This document shows positions 39,043 to 46,723 of a stretch of DNA of 64,000 nt, piece after piece. Position 1 is the stretch's first letter; every line of letters begins with the position of its first letter. The stretch lies in contig CALHOU010000055.1 in assembly GCA_938035945.1 (NCBI GenBank), forward strand, positions 1 through 64,000, read 5' to 3'. The position numbers were made by a program, and so were the translations under genes. The notes under the pieces were generated by a model, which worked only from the letters and a program-made list of their open reading frames with translations, made no database searches and had not been told where the DNA came from. Source of the stretch: an uncultured Granulosicoccaceae bacterium. Lineage in GTDB: Bacteria; Pseudomonadota; Gammaproteobacteria; Granulosicoccales; Granulosicoccaceae.

Positions 39043-40047
39043 TTAAGTGAAACGTAAACTCTGGCCAAGTCCATTGGCTTCGGCTTTCTTCCAGATGGCA
39101 TGGCCAAGCGCAATATCGGTGGTGCTTAAACCGCGGTGCCAAAATAAGTTGGTTTCATCTGCGCTTTCTCTTCCCGACTTTTGTCCTGCAACTATCTGGC
39201 CTAGCTCACCATGAATAGTTTCTTCACTTACTTTTCCTTCATCCACGTGGCGTCGTAAGGACCCAAACGGTTTTCCGGGCGCGCACTGGCCCCAGTCATC
39301 AACAACAATTTTATCCATTATATCGGTCAATGAGAATTCAACAGCGCTCATGGTGCCGTAGGGCACAATCAGGGACCCTGGTTTAACCCATTGCGTTAGC
39401 AGGTGAGGGTGAGGTTCAGGTAGGCGTGATGCTTCGACCAGAATGTCAGCATTGTCTAAACAGTCTTTCCAATTGTCGGTGACGATAATGTCCCGATTAA
39501 GATCGGTCCGTAGTTTTTTAGCAAATGCATTTTGACTCTCTGGGCGTCTGGAATGTACTCTAATTTCTGAAAGATCAAACAGATGGTTTAGCAAACGTAC
39601 ATTCCAATAGGCGGTACCACGTGCACCAATGTGCCCAAGTATTTTACTCTCTTTGTTCGCAAGGTATTTAGCGCCAAGTGCTGTCATCGCACCGGTGCGC
39701 ATGTCGGTGATAGAGCTGGCATCAATAATGGCTTTGGGCACGCCCGTTTCTGGGCAAAACAAAGTAAGCACTGCAAGTTCAGACGGTAAGTCTTGTTTGT
39801 AGTTATTAACGAAATCTCCGACGACTTTTACACCAGCAACATCTAATGACTTAACAACGCCTCGCAAAACATTAAAATGCCCCTTGTCTGATGTTTCTGG
39901 TACGAGGTGCACGCGGGGTTCTATTACGGTGTCACCAGTGCCTTGTGCGAGTAGGGCGGATTCAACGGCACCTAGAATTTCATCATTGCTTAAAGCCAGT
40001 TTACGTATATCAACACCGTTGATGTAACTGATGTTTATTTGCTGCAT
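39043..40047 (-). CDS. Ornithine cyclodeaminase/mu-crystallin family protein
   Basis: The 334-residue cytoplasmic protein has the family Rossmann motif (ILGHIGARGTAYWNV; the usual GxGxQA reads GARGTA), the conserved lysine region GVKVVGDFVNN and the loop ITDMRTGAMTALGAKYLA. Members act as ornithine cyclodeaminase, alanine dehydrogenase, ketimine reductase or imine-forming enzymes. Its gene lies 13 bases after the HAL-family gene on the same strand, so the two probably act on the same amino acid or imine. Substrate unknown. Confidence 0.83.
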   Translation of the reverse strand: MQQINISYINGVDIRKLALSNDEILGAVESALLAQGTGDTVIEPRVHLVPETSDKGHFNVLRGVVKSLDVAGVKVVGDFVNNYKQDLPSELAVLTLFCPETGVPKAIIDASSITDMRTGAMTALGAKYLANKESKILGHIGARGTAYWNVRLLNHLFDLSEIRVHSRRPESQNAFAKKLRTDLNRDIIVTDNWKDCLDNADILVEASRLPEPHPHLLTQWVKPGSLIVPYGTMSAVEFSLTDIMDKIVVDDWGQCAPGKPFGSLRRHVDEGKVSEETIHGELGQIVAGQKSGRESADETNLFWHRGLSTTDIALGHAIWKKAEANGLGQSLRFT

Positions 40048-40060
40048 CTATTTATCTCTT

Positions 40061-41593
40061 TCATTGTGAAAAAGCTCCATGTTCTATCAGTGAGGCAAGT
40101 TGTTCTATTTCCGCGCCTAGTGCTCGATCACTTTCCAATGGTGCTGATACGGAACGCACCTTTGCATGGATTGGTATGAGTGTGCGCGCAATGGGTTTGG
40201 TGAGTTTTCTTAGATCTATCGCTTGTGCTGCAACTATCGCCTCTATCGCCGAAAGCTGCCGTAAGCGTTTGGCGATCGGAAAAAGATTTTTTGTGGGTAT
40301 AGCTGCGTGGGTTACTACATCTTCAAGTCCGTCTGCTGAAATGCCGGGATAAATTGGCGGTGGTGTGGCCAAGTGTGAAATTTCTGCGAATAAAGCTTCC
40401 ACCGTTTTCATCACTGGTCCTAAACCTGCTCCTTCAGCGCCTGCGTAAGATAGGCCGTTGGAGAGCCCTGAGAATCGTTCAAAGAGTTGCTTGGATATAC
40501 GAGATGTTTGCAGTGCAGCTAAATGGACAAAGGCTTGCGCCGTTGCGTTTAAGGTAACACTAATGTGTGGTGGCAAATATCCACCGTTTGACAGTATTTC
40601 ATTTGATTCTAAAATTACAGCAGGGTTATCTGAGGCGCCATTGATTTCGCACATTAATGCTTCTAGCGATACGTTTAACATCGCGTGGACCGAACCGTGC
40701 ACCTGAGCGATGTTGCGAATGCTTAAGGGGTCTTGTAAGCGTCGCGCCTCACCTGCAACAAACAACTCGCTCCCTTCAAGACGATCTCTTAAGCCTTTGG
40801 CTGCATCGAGTTGCCCTGGCTGTGGTCGTAATGCTAATACGCGTTGATCGAGTGGAGATAAGTTCGCGCGAAATGCTTCCATGGATAAAGCTGCACTGGT
40901 TTGTGAGGCTTCATAACAGTGTTTTAGTTCCTGCCAACCCAGTGCGGCCATGCCGGCCGTGATGGTTGAGTGTGAAACCAATGCTAGCCCTTCGCGCGGC
41001 TGCGGTTTAAACGGTGTTATACCAGCTGCTGCCATAGCCTGTGCCGCGTTTTCTATACTGCCATCCGACGTTTGCATTTGACCTTCACCAATCATCGCCA
41101 TACCTAAAGCGCCACCCCAACATAAATCGGCAACGCCAATCGTTCCACTCGTTGGAATGACGGGCGTAAGCTGGGCATTCAAACATTCGCAAAGGTGATC
41201 GGCCAATTCTGGTCTAGCCCCCGCTGCACCCAGCAACAAAGTGTTTATTCGCACGGCGACGCCTGCTCGTACATTTTTTTGGGGTAACGGGTCGCCAACA
41301 CCGTGTGCTCTGCCACGAATGGTATTTATAGAGAAGGTATCCATCGCATCGTCAGGCATGGTTTGCGTTACTCGCGGACCTAGCCCTGTGGTGACGCCGT
41401 AGACGGGTAAGCGTGTTTCGATGGCGTGCTCTATAACGTTTCGTGCCGCCGCCATGGTGGCCAGTGCATCGGGAGCGAGGTTGATTTTTGCACCGTTGGC
41501 GATTACGAGAAGATCGGCAGGTGTTAGATTGTGGCCATTGAGTGTGATGGTTTGTGCTGTCATGCGCCAATTACCGAAGGTGTCTGAGGCCAT
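40061..41593 (-). CDS. HAL/PAL-family protein lacking the MIO Ala-Ser-Gly triad
   Basis: The 510-residue protein is a clear homologue of histidine/phenylalanine ammonia-lyases: VYGVTTGLGPRV (catalytic Tyr loop), QDPLSIRNIAQVHG, GASDNPAVILE and GLEDVVTHA are all conserved. The MIO-forming region, normally GSVGASGDLAPL, reads GTIGVADLCWGG (residues 150-161), so the Ala-Ser-Gly triad is replaced by Val-Ala with one residue lost. The following NGT motif also reads SHS (207-209). The DNA confirms both. Ammonia elimination by the known mechanism is therefore unlikely. An alternative ATG is at 41563. It is probably co-transcribed with the ornithine-cyclodeaminase-family gene. Confidence 0.88.
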   Translation of the reverse strand: MASDTFGNWRMTAQTITLNGHNLTPADLLVIANGAKINLAPDALATMAAARNVIEHAIETRLPVYGVTTGLGPRVTQTMPDDAMDTFSINTIRGRAHGVGDPLPQKNVRAGVAVRINTLLLGAAGARPELADHLCECLNAQLTPVIPTSGTIGVADLCWGGALGMAMIGEGQMQTSDGSIENAAQAMAAAGITPFKPQPREGLALVSHSTITAGMAALGWQELKHCYEASQTSAALSMEAFRANLSPLDQRVLALRPQPGQLDAAKGLRDRLEGSELFVAGEARRLQDPLSIRNIAQVHGSVHAMLNVSLEALMCEINGASDNPAVILESNEILSNGGYLPPHISVTLNATAQAFVHLAALQTSRISKQLFERFSGLSNGLSYAGAEGAGLGPVMKTVEALFAEISHLATPPPIYPGISADGLEDVVTHAAIPTKNLFPIAKRLRQLSAIEAIVAAQAIDLRKLTKPIARTLIPIHAKVRSVSAPLESDRALGAEIEQLASLIEHGAFSQ

Positions 41594-44183: not shown

Positions 44184-45584
44184 ATGGATCATTTTCACAT
44201 TGTTATAGCCGGTGGTGGTAATGCTGGCTTGTGCGCAGCTATCTCGGCTGCGCGAGCTGGCGCTTCAGTGTGCGTTTTAGAAGCGGCTCCTAAGGATTGG
44301 CGTGGTGGCAATACTCGGCATACGCGTAATATGCGAGTTGCACATGATGAAGGTAATGGAATACTAACCGGGCCTTATCCGGTTGACGAATACATGGATG
44401 ACTTAACCCGTGTAACTAATGGCAATACAGATACCGAGCTTGCCAGTTTAACCCTCGAAAAATCATCCGAACTTTGGGATTTCCTCGCGCAACAAGGCGT
44501 TCACTATCAACCATCACTCGGTGGTACTTTGTCTTTGGGAAGAACGAATGCGTTTTTTCTTGGTGGTGGCCGATCCATGCTAAATGCACTGTATCGCACG
44601 GCTCAGGCGCTGGGCGTTAGCGTTTTCTACGATGCAAAAGTAAGTGCGCTAGACATAGAAAACGGATTTTTCGAATCGGCCGAAGTCACTCATAATTGGC
44701 AGTCGTCTAACCCGCGAAAGTCGGTTATACACGGACGGGCTTTTATTGCGGCAGCGGGTGGTTTTGAAGCGAACATTGAATGGCTGAAAGAAGCCTGGGG
44801 GCCGGCGGCTGAGAATTTTCTTATTCGTGGAACACCTTACAACCGCGGCGATGTGCTCAAGCAATTGATCGATGCTGGTGTACAGTCTGTTGGCGATGCC
44901 AAGCAATGCCATGCGGTGGCGATTGACGGTCGTGCACCAAAATTCGATGGTGGCATTGTCACACGATTAGATTGTGTGCCATTTGGCATTGTATTAAATA
45001 ATCGGTGTGAGCGATTTTATGACGAAGGCGAAGACTTTTGGCCTAAGCGATACGCCATTTGGGGGCGCCTGGTTGCAGCTCAGCCAGACCAGGTTGGGCA
45101 TGTCATTATCGATTCAAAATCCATTGAACTGTTTATGCCTTCTGTATTTCCGCCTTTACAGGCGGATACCCTAGAAGAGCTGGCAACGCTGATCGGCATC
45201 GATGCGATGTCGTTGAATAAAACTGTTGCGAGTTTTAATCAAGCCTGCCGCGGAAAACAGTTCGATCACACTGTTCACGATGATTGTCATACTGAAGGTA
45301 TCGAACCTCCTAAAACCCATTGGGCCAGAGCCATTGATACGCCACCGTACTACGCCTATACATTACGCCCTGGCATCACCTTTACCTACCTTGGTGTTAA
45401 AGTTGATCGCGATGCACGCATGATCATGAGCGATGGTACGCCAAGCGCTAATCTCTATGCTGCTGGCGAGATAATGGCTGGAAACGTTCTTGGTGAAGGT
45501 TACCTGGCAGGGATTGGTATGACGATAGGTAGCGTGTTTGGGCGTATTGCTGGTGATACGGCGGCCAAACGTGTGAGTAACTAA
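44184..45584 (+). CDS. tcuA: FAD-dependent tricarballylate dehydrogenase TcuA
   Basis: The 466-residue flavoprotein opens with HIVIAGGGNAGLCAAISAARAG, an FAD dinucleotide motif. It contains WRGGNTRHTRNMR, the hallmark of TcuA/CobZ, and ends with the FAD-contacting NLYAAGEIMAGNVLGEGYLA. It oxidises tricarballylate to cis-aconitate and passes electrons to TcuB, encoded 26 bases downstream. No tcuC transporter or tcuR regulator gene is adjacent. An AGG lies eight bases before the ATG. Confidence 0.93.
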   Translation: MDHFHIVIAGGGNAGLCAAISAARAGASVCVLEAAPKDWRGGNTRHTRNMRVAHDEGNGILTGPYPVDEYMDDLTRVTNGNTDTELASLTLEKSSELWDFLAQQGVHYQPSLGGTLSLGRTNAFFLGGGRSMLNALYRTAQALGVSVFYDAKVSALDIENGFFESAEVTHNWQSSNPRKSVIHGRAFIAAAGGFEANIEWLKEAWGPAAENFLIRGTPYNRGDVLKQLIDAGVQSVGDAKQCHAVAIDGRAPKFDGGIVTRLDCVPFGIVLNNRCERFYDEGEDFWPKRYAIWGRLVAAQPDQVGHVIIDSKSIELFMPSVFPPLQADTLEELATLIGIDAMSLNKTVASFNQACRGKQFDHTVHDDCHTEGIEPPKTHWARAIDTPPYYAYTLRPGITFTYLGVKVDRDARMIMSDGTPSANLYAAGEIMAGNVLGEGYLAGIGMTIGSVFGRIAGDTAAKRVSN

Positions 45585-45610
45585 CTGCTCGGTAAACACA
45601 ACGACACTCA

Positions 45611-46723
45611 ATGAATACCATCATTCCAATTACTGAAATACAAACCGAAGCCGTGCGTCAAATGGGTGTATGCAATGCCTGTCGATATTGTGAAGGTGTT
45701 TGTGCCGTGTTTCCGGCCATGGAATTGCGACGTTCTTTGTCGGGGCAGGATGTTGATTACCTGGCGAATCTGTGTCACAGCTGCGGTGCTTGTCATTTTG
45801 ATTGTCAATACGCTAAGCCGCATGAATTTGCGATTGAGATACCAGCACTTATGTCTCAGCTTCGTGAAGAAACGTATTCACGCTATGTTTGGCCTTCGGC
45901 ACTTGCACCTGTTTTTGCACGCAATGGTTTGTGGATAAGTATCATCACCGCCATCACGGTTGCTTTATTTATTATTGGCTTTATTAGTTTTACAGAACCG
46001 AGTGTTTTATTTGCCAGTGGCAGTGAGGAGGGTGCGTTTTATCGAGCAATGCCACACAACGCCATGGTGGCTATATTCGGGTCGGTGTTTTTATTTTCCA
46101 TTCTAGCCATGAGCTTAGGTGTTCGACGTTATTGGCGCTCCACAGGTGCGCAAGGCAGTATGACTTGGCGCAGTCTTTGGCAAGCAGCCAAAGACGCTGG
46201 GCAACTGCGTTATCTTGATGGTGGTGGAATGGGCTGTATGCACGAAAGCGAAGAACCAAGCAACAGCCGACGCGTAGCGCATCATTTCACCTTCTATGGG
46301 TTCTTGCTTTGCCTGGCATCAACATCAGTGGCTACGATCATGCATTATGTGTTTGGCGTGCAAGCGCCATACCCCTGGTGGTCGCCAACAGTGGTACTGG
46401 GTACTCTGGGTGGAATCGGTTTAATTGTAGGACCTATCGGATTGCTAAAAGCCAAACGTGAGAAACACGACGCTTTGAAGCCCGAACGCAGTTCTGGGAT
46501 GGATGTTGCGTTCTTGTACATGTTGCTCGCCACCAGCATCACCGGCCTATTGTTGCTGGTGTTTAGAGCGACGCCTGCAATGGGGTTATTGTTGGCGCTG
46601 CATTTAGGCATTGTTTTTTCGTTGTTCTTAAGCATGCCCTATGGGAAGTTTGTACATGGTTTGTATCGCTATGCGGCGTTAATGCGGCATGCGCATGAGC
46701 AAGCGCAAATTAACAAACACTAA
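45611..46723 (+). CDS. tcuB: Tricarballylate utilization protein TcuB
   Basis: The 370-residue protein has two N-terminal [4Fe-4S] motifs (CNACRYCEGVC and CHSCGACHFDC) and a membrane region with six hydrophobic helices (for example IITAITVALFIIGFISF). This matches the TcuB/CitB family that reoxidises TcuA and delivers electrons to the quinone pool. Its stop overlaps the stop of the convergent pbpC by three bases. Confidence 0.93.
   Translation: MNTIIPITEIQTEAVRQMGVCNACRYCEGVCAVFPAMELRRSLSGQDVDYLANLCHSCGACHFDCQYAKPHEFAIEIPALMSQLREETYSRYVWPSALAPVFARNGLWISIITAITVALFIIGFISFTEPSVLFASGSEEGAFYRAMPHNAMVAIFGSVFLFSILAMSLGVRRYWRSTGAQGSMTWRSLWQAAKDAGQLRYLDGGGMGCMHESEEPSNSRRVAHHFTFYGFLLCLASTSVATIMHYVFGVQAPYPWWSPTVVLGTLGGIGLIVGPIGLLKAKREKHDALKPERSSGMDVAFLYMLLATSITGLLLLVFRATPAMGLLLALHLGIVFSLFLSMPYGKFVHGLYRYAALMRHAHEQAQINKH

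Follow-up and report, generated by a model that had tools for sequence, protein, structure and literature searches.

The window analyzed here, a stretch of 64,000 nucleotides from an uncultured Granulosicoccaceae bacterium, encodes a member of the histidine ammonia-lyase (HAL) family that lacks the residues from which the MIO cofactor forms and, directly next to it, an unusual member of the ornithine cyclodeaminase (OCD) family. The explanation that we consider best, and moderately probable, is that the first protein is an MIO-free lyase that acts on an imidazole betaine, ergothioneine sulfonate being the most likely one, and releases trimethylamine, and that the second acts on the product as an OCD-like reductase. 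The features involved are the following:

40061-41593, minus strand: MIO-free HAL-family lyase, a predicted trimethylamine (betaine) lyase (PF00221, 363 bits; motifs, residues, own clade)
41123-41146, minus strand: GTIGVADL segment of the lyase (residues 150-157), at the site of the MIO-forming Ala-Ser-Gly (translation and alignment)
39043-40047, minus strand: OCD-family partner, 334 aa, with IGARGTAYWN and VHSRRP, a predicted NAD(P)H-dependent reductase (PF02423, 166 bits)

The lyase (510 aa, ATG start, stop included in the coordinates) is a full-length member of the HAL fold, with residues 23-480 matching PF00221 (HAL/PAL) far above the cut-off of 27.3 bits. However, the Ala-Ser-Gly triad of the MIO-dependent HAL/PAL ammonia-lyases is missing: in the alignment with the P. 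putida HAL, GSVGASGDLAPL corresponds to GTIGV-ADLCWG, that is, Val-Ala replaces Ala-Ser-Gly with one residue deleted, and LLNGTQ corresponds to LVSHST, so that NGT becomes SHS; the protein also carries a QDPLS motif. Val-Ala-Asp cannot yield MIO, there being no Ser to dehydrate. A sequencing error or frameshift was ruled out as the source of this change by comparison with relatives: a profile of 16 aligned proteins, run against genome contigs, gave 307 confirmed relatives, and among the best 80 of these, all in named genome records, every locus has the pattern [GA][ST]xG..-DL with one residue deleted. GTIGVADL itself recurs in two relatives (L062 and L063), each 75% identical to the window lyase. 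In 21 of the 80 loci, the motif reads GSIGAS-DL, with the Ala-Ser pair retained and only the Gly gone; for these, MIO formation is not strictly excluded from the sequence alone. An ordinary HutH identity was rejected as well: the only other PF00221 gene of the source genome is a canonical HAL on contig C82 (24508-25908) with an adjoining urocanase, and the window lyase reaches only 309.9 bits against the NCBIfam hutH equivalog cut-off of 539.15. The EgtD-type methyltransferase family PF10017 has no match in the source genome, whose assembly is 86% complete.

An MIO-free lyase of the HAL family is already known, namely ergothionase, which releases trimethylamine and which, according to a passage in PMC13405746 citing Maurer et al. 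2019, works without the MIO cofactor. The ergothionase of Treponema denticola (6s7j/6s7q) is the best PDB match of the window lyase (178 bits; 28% identity over 487 columns in blastp), and in the alignment it reads SSIGEGDI, VSCN and QDPLSFR where HAL reads GSVGASGDL, LNGT and QDPYSLR. Active-site positions were compared over 71 aligned rows, including 28 of the window clade, 9 other OCD-type, 4 ergothionase-like and 17 canonical ones; the names Tyr280, His83, Arg283 and Glu414 follow HAL numbering. The window lyase retains Tyr65, Gln287, Arg293 and Glu424; the loop tyrosine is Y in all 71 rows, and Glu424 is E in all except four canonical ones. The Tyr280 position, in contrast, is Y in 17/17 canonical rows versus L, I or V in 28/28 window-clade rows and in 80/80 clade loci, the window lyase having Leu rather than the Tyr of MIO-dependent lyases. 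The His83 position is Arg in the window lyase and in 28/28 rows of its clade, and a Lys absent from HAL has been gained at K396: this column is K in 28/28 window-clade, 9/9 other OCD-type, 3/4 ergothionase-like (K in T. denticola, Ala in S. meliloti) and 0/17 canonical rows. Of the 80 clade loci, 79 retain each of Y65, R95, K396 and E424, the exception being a gap in one truncated row, and all 80 retain R293. Thus, in lacking the MIO triad, in having Leu at the Tyr280 position and in the Lys and Glu of its pocket, the window lyase matches ergothionase.

The initial annotation had read the triad replacement, the deletion and the NGT change from the letters, and the alignment bears it out on all three. 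Its further statement that the tyrosine loop and the other active-site blocks are intact holds for the four retained residues but not for the Tyr280 and His83 positions or for the gained Lys. Ergothionase overturns the assumption that MIO is required by the known lyases of the fold, since its sequence has no triad and the source cited above describes it as having no cofactor; of the two roles derived from that assumption, other chemistry is precedented by ergothionase, and there is no need to invoke a protein that only binds.

The best 80 of the 307 relatives come from Granulosicoccaceae, Rhodobacterales, Rhodospirillales, Hyphomicrobiales, Streptomyces and other Actinomycetota, and one Oceanobacillus. 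In the tree of 71 rows, the 28 window-clade rows form a single clade (support 99) which joins the nine other OCD-type rows (95), and the four ergothionase-like rows form a clade of their own (98); the join of the OCD-type group with the ergothionase-like clade is weak (support 32). A tree from which the motif columns and three long rows had been removed gives the same result (99, 95 and 99, respectively); in it, a branch supported at 69, which neither establishes nor rejects their grouping, sets all 51 MIO-less rows apart. Neither tree calls for repeated loss of MIO, since a single change of state is enough on each.

Other motif variants are present in the family. A second MIO-less type, with GSVGY---L (three residues deleted) and QD[PA]LS, groups with canonical HALs (support 100) and was found in L041, L050, L056, L061, L123:17049-18570, L215, L216, L217, L250 and L253; in L193, a lyase of this type sits among hut genes and a BCCT transporter. 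A third MIO-less type, with GSIGQA-DL and QDPLAFK, is found in two Streptomyces loci (L127:15430-17247 and L152:15013-17226) that also carry a urocanase and a window-type lyase. Finally, very divergent PF00221 proteins on G660:C54 and G384:C68 (L221, L226) have SAG-EI or GAG-EI in place of ASGDL and QAPVS in place of QDPYS.

The OCD-family gene starts 13 bp downstream of the window lyase, on the same strand. Its product matches PF02423 (OCD/mu-crystallin), has alanine dehydrogenase 1omo as its best PDB relative, and also matches the model of the iminosuccinate reductase BhcD, below the cut-off of that model. Among the 61 partners aligned besides that of the window, [IVL]GAR[GA][TS][AS]YWN replaces the usual glycine motif in 59, HS[RK] is present in all 61, and PYG[TS] occupies the GADGPGK segment of 1omo in 60, with GAD in none. 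The window partner lacks the catalytic Asp of ornithine cyclodeaminase, reading PYGTMSA in the GxD..GK segment that we take to be the site of this residue; its HSRRP, as a sequence motif, suggests NADP(H). The OCD is the more conserved of the two proteins (75% in Rhizobium beringeri, against 37% for the lyase).

The presence of OCD was counted by tblastn, gene calling in GC-rich loci having missed the annotated OCD of one of them (L076). Among the best 80 of the 307 relatives, OCD is found in 56 loci and lies within 1 kb of the lyase in 54 (33 upstream on the same strand, 6 downstream on the same strand and 15 in the opposite orientation); it is also present in all 6 plasmid loci of the first search. 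None of the 47 canonical HAL loci that served as control (flanks of about 1.5 kb) has an OCD, compared with 11 of the 26 MIO-less loci from the genome searches within flanks of 1.5 kb; four GSVGY rows and several cut contigs are among the 15 MIO-less loci without it. In 17 of the 24 clade loci without OCD, more than 2 kb of sequence is available on either side of the lyase; some members of the clade therefore do without a neighbouring OCD. Three window-clade lyases without OCD (L116, L119 and L122) have an amidase-family cluster just upstream, identified as such for L119.

At the genome level, with "lyase" meaning the -DL type at the search cut-off, kinship uncorrected and one genome classed from an N-terminal fragment, 13 of 48 same-family genomes have both genes, 2 only the OCD, 4 only the lyase and 29 neither. 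The corresponding numbers for 398 genomes of the phylum, likewise uncorrected for kinship, are 9, 2, 0 and 387, and hold when the one genus contributing six of the nine genomes with both is counted once (4/2/0/387); in all nine phylum genomes with both, the lyase and OCD are within 1.2 kb of each other. One locus, L187 (G467:C2), speaks against a strict lyase-OCD pair because there the OCD sits among canonical hut genes beside a canonical HutH, the only PF00221 match of that genome, with no MIO-less lyase found; this locus seems to tie the OCD reaction to the hut pathway itself. The coupling to an OCD-family gene proposed in the initial annotation is thus confirmed well beyond the window, and the active metabolic role that was derived from it is likely. 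The homologues also behave as expected under the check suggested there, forming a separate clade with the same recurring neighbour, albeit one missing from 24 of the 80 loci.

The genes around the relatives (raw counts throughout, taken without a formal null) point to betaine uptake and the hut pathway. Of 87 loci, 23 (20 from Actinomycetota and 3 from rhizobia) encode a betaine-type substrate-binding protein scoring above 100 bits, which annotated records name glycine betaine ABC transporter; 9 have MTTB-family genes, three of them only 27-30% alike, and urocanase, HutF, HutI and HutC-like genes occur in 6, 4, 3 and 5 loci, respectively. All six urocanases exceed the hutU cut-off and fall below the cut-offs for both thiourocanate hydratase and S-methyl thiourocanate hydratase; no thiourocanate hydratase was recognized in these pathway clusters, and none of the six urocanases lies in the window. 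Because these urocanases are canonical hutU products by the cut-offs, the pathway seems to enter at plain urocanate. The hut linkage recurs in Alpha- and Gammaproteobacteria and in Streptomyces, and in one locus (L193), HutU, a BCCT betaine transporter, a GSVGY-type lyase, HutI, HutG, an OCD-type MIO-less lyase, a betaine substrate-binding protein, an OCD, a PhnD-like protein and ABC genes lie on one strand.

Sulfur-related neighbours are rarer. Among 113 loci that overlap in part, 5 encode a YeiH-type protein; 3 of the 5 represent one cluster type, and the window has none. The gene lies 192 bp from the OCD in Paracoccus saliphilus and, in Polaromonas, in one stretch with an ergothionase-type lyase and an OCD. 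YeiH is needed for sulfite resistance in Salmonella, according to PMC12880088. In L132, a CysN/C protein follows the OCD, and 2 of 92 proteins scanned match CysN/C domains, the second presumably from L134. Beside the lyase-OCD pair of the window itself, no betaine transporter, hut gene or sulfur gene was recognized. TcuAB, IDH, Tex and other window genes were considered as partners and dropped; besides the lyase and the OCD, only a small cluster (c94, 3 loci) recurs, and the 100 neighbours scanned include a single isocitrate-dehydrogenase-family protein.

Several further observations concern these neighbourhoods. The window encodes homologues of TcuA and TcuB, a tricarballylate dehydrogenase pair, at 44184-46723, where the TcuA models and one TcuB model exceed the NCBIfam cut-offs. 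A PhnD-like protein (PF12974) is present in 19 of 113 loci, often directly after or near the OCD (L187, L192, L193, L202, L232-L239 and others); the starts inspected have no evident signal peptide and, going by these sequences, the protein may be cytosolic. A desaturase-like protein, assigned to PF00487 where scanned, is encoded repeatedly in the vicinity of lyase, OCD or MTTB-family genes (L099, L113, L118, L126, L128, L129, L130, L135, L136 and L235), and luciferase-like (LLM) monooxygenases, one of the NtaA/DmoA type, lie upstream of the OCD and lyase in L078, L079, L197 and L236.

Taking the missing triad together with a residue set like that of ergothionase, a clade of its own, the link to an OCD subfamily and the genes nearby, we infer the following route. 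An imidazole betaine would be imported from outside; the loop tyrosine of the lyase would take the beta proton, and the trimethylammonium group would depart as trimethylamine. Because a quaternary trimethylammonium leaves in this form, the electrophilic MIO would not be needed. These first two steps are suggested by homology, residues and neighbours; MIO-free amine elimination by the window lyase is, in our estimate, highly probable, and an imidazole betaine is its probable substrate. Ergothioneine sulfonate fits best among the imidazole betaines since the usual partner belongs to the OCD family, which transfers hydride to C=N bonds: the partner would reduce C2 of the sulfonated urocanate, expelling sulfite, and the resulting plain urocanate would enter the ordinary hut pathway, with trimethylamine passing to methyltransferases in some genomes. 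This choice of substrate, with its reductive desulfonation, is put forward tentatively, as a serious candidate whose chances we place slightly below even. The OCD step is proposed partly by analogy with the bacterial ergothioneine-sulfonate pathway, reportedly described by Yan, Huang and Zhang in ACS Catal in 2022, in which a trimethylamine-lyase is followed by an NAD(P)H-dependent desulfonating reductase, yielding urocanate and sulfite.

The main alternative substrate is hercynine (Nalpha-trimethylhistidine), elimination of trimethylamine from which would give urocanate directly, with the OCD handling a secondary compound, for instance an N-methylated histidine. The canonical HutU in the loci, the betaine importers and hut genes nearby, and the 24 of 80 loci without OCD, which pose no problem for such an enzyme, all agree with it; nevertheless, we regard it as unlikely, as it leaves both the highly conserved, frequent OCD partner and the YeiH and CysNC neighbours unexplained. 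A true ergothionase, converting ergothioneine to thiourocanate and trimethylamine, would account for the MIO-free residue set, which is the same as in ergothionase, but it is quite improbable given that the window clade stands apart from the ergothionase-like rows, two separate supported clades being recovered, that identity to the T. denticola enzyme is 28%, and that the hydratases in the loci score below the thiourocanate and S-methyl thiourocanate hydratase cut-offs.

It is similarly doubtful that the substrate is a non-imidazole betaine or carries another beta leaving group, with the OCD partner reducing an enamine or imine product. The iminosuccinate reductase BhcD, which acts after a dehydratase, offers an analogue, and the partner does match the BhcD model, below its cut-off; moreover, hut genes lie near only a minority of the loci (urocanase in 6 of 87). 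The recurrence of the hut linkage in Alpha- and Gammaproteobacteria and Streptomyces, however, argues against this reading. Loss of the cofactor together with changes in HAL active-site residues could also mark a pseudoenzyme or non-catalytic ligand-binding protein, which we consider very improbable because Tyr65, Arg293, Lys396 and Glu424 are strictly conserved across phyla and a catalytic MIO-free relative, ergothionase, exists.

If the preferred reading, removal of trimethylamine from an imidazole betaine followed by the OCD-like reductase, is correct, genes labelled hutH would be betaine lyases releasing trimethylamine. All six of the MIO-less plasmid genes that were checked (L078, L079, L080, L234, L236 and L239) are annotated as histidine ammonia-lyase or hutH; annotated records thus mislabel genes of the clade despite the missing MIO triad. 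MIO-free elimination, otherwise a matter of a few ergothionases, would then also be found in many Proteobacteria and Actinomycetota and in at least one record from Bacillota, and the OCD family would gain a new kind of reaction. More speculatively, and with rather low confidence, the lyase and the altered OCD could be the core of an undescribed, widespread catabolic route for imidazole betaines, in which the OCD would catalyse a reaction new to its family, stripping the C2 substituent reductively from an aromatic imidazole, the PhnD-like protein may add a step, and the betaine may be an unrecognized nutrient. A literature search on MIO-free lyases, ergothionase, betaine lyases, hercynine and ergothioneine sulfonate, mostly among papers available without subscription, found ergothionase and no account of the window clade or its OCD partner.

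In comparison with known systems, the window lyase shares with HutH (of P. putida and of its own genome, L001) the fold family, most of the scaffold, the loop Tyr, and the Arg283 and Glu414 positions, whereas HutH has ASG, Tyr280, His83 and NGT, and its equivalog cut-off lies far above the score of the window lyase. With the T. denticola ergothionase, it shares the HAL family, the lack of the MIO triad with one residue deleted at that site, Leu at HAL Tyr280, the pocket Lys and Glu, and the retained loop Tyr and Arg; unlike ergothionase, it has Arg at HAL His83, shows low overall identity and belongs to a separate clade, whose loci often include an OCD partner and, among relatives, canonical HutU. 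The OCD partner resembles the OCD/mu-crystallin family, for example 1omo, in its PF02423 match and in the conserved Lys (GVK/GLK) and Arg (RTGA) positions, but differs from 1omo in having GARGTAYWN instead of GCGTQAYFQ, PYGTMSA instead of IGADGPGK, and HSRRP. The likeness to the pathway reportedly described by Yan et al. 2022 would lie in the lyase-then-reductase logic. An HAL-family enzyme without MIO therefore has a precedent, and it is the clade, the residue set and the OCD partner that are new among MIO-free lyases.
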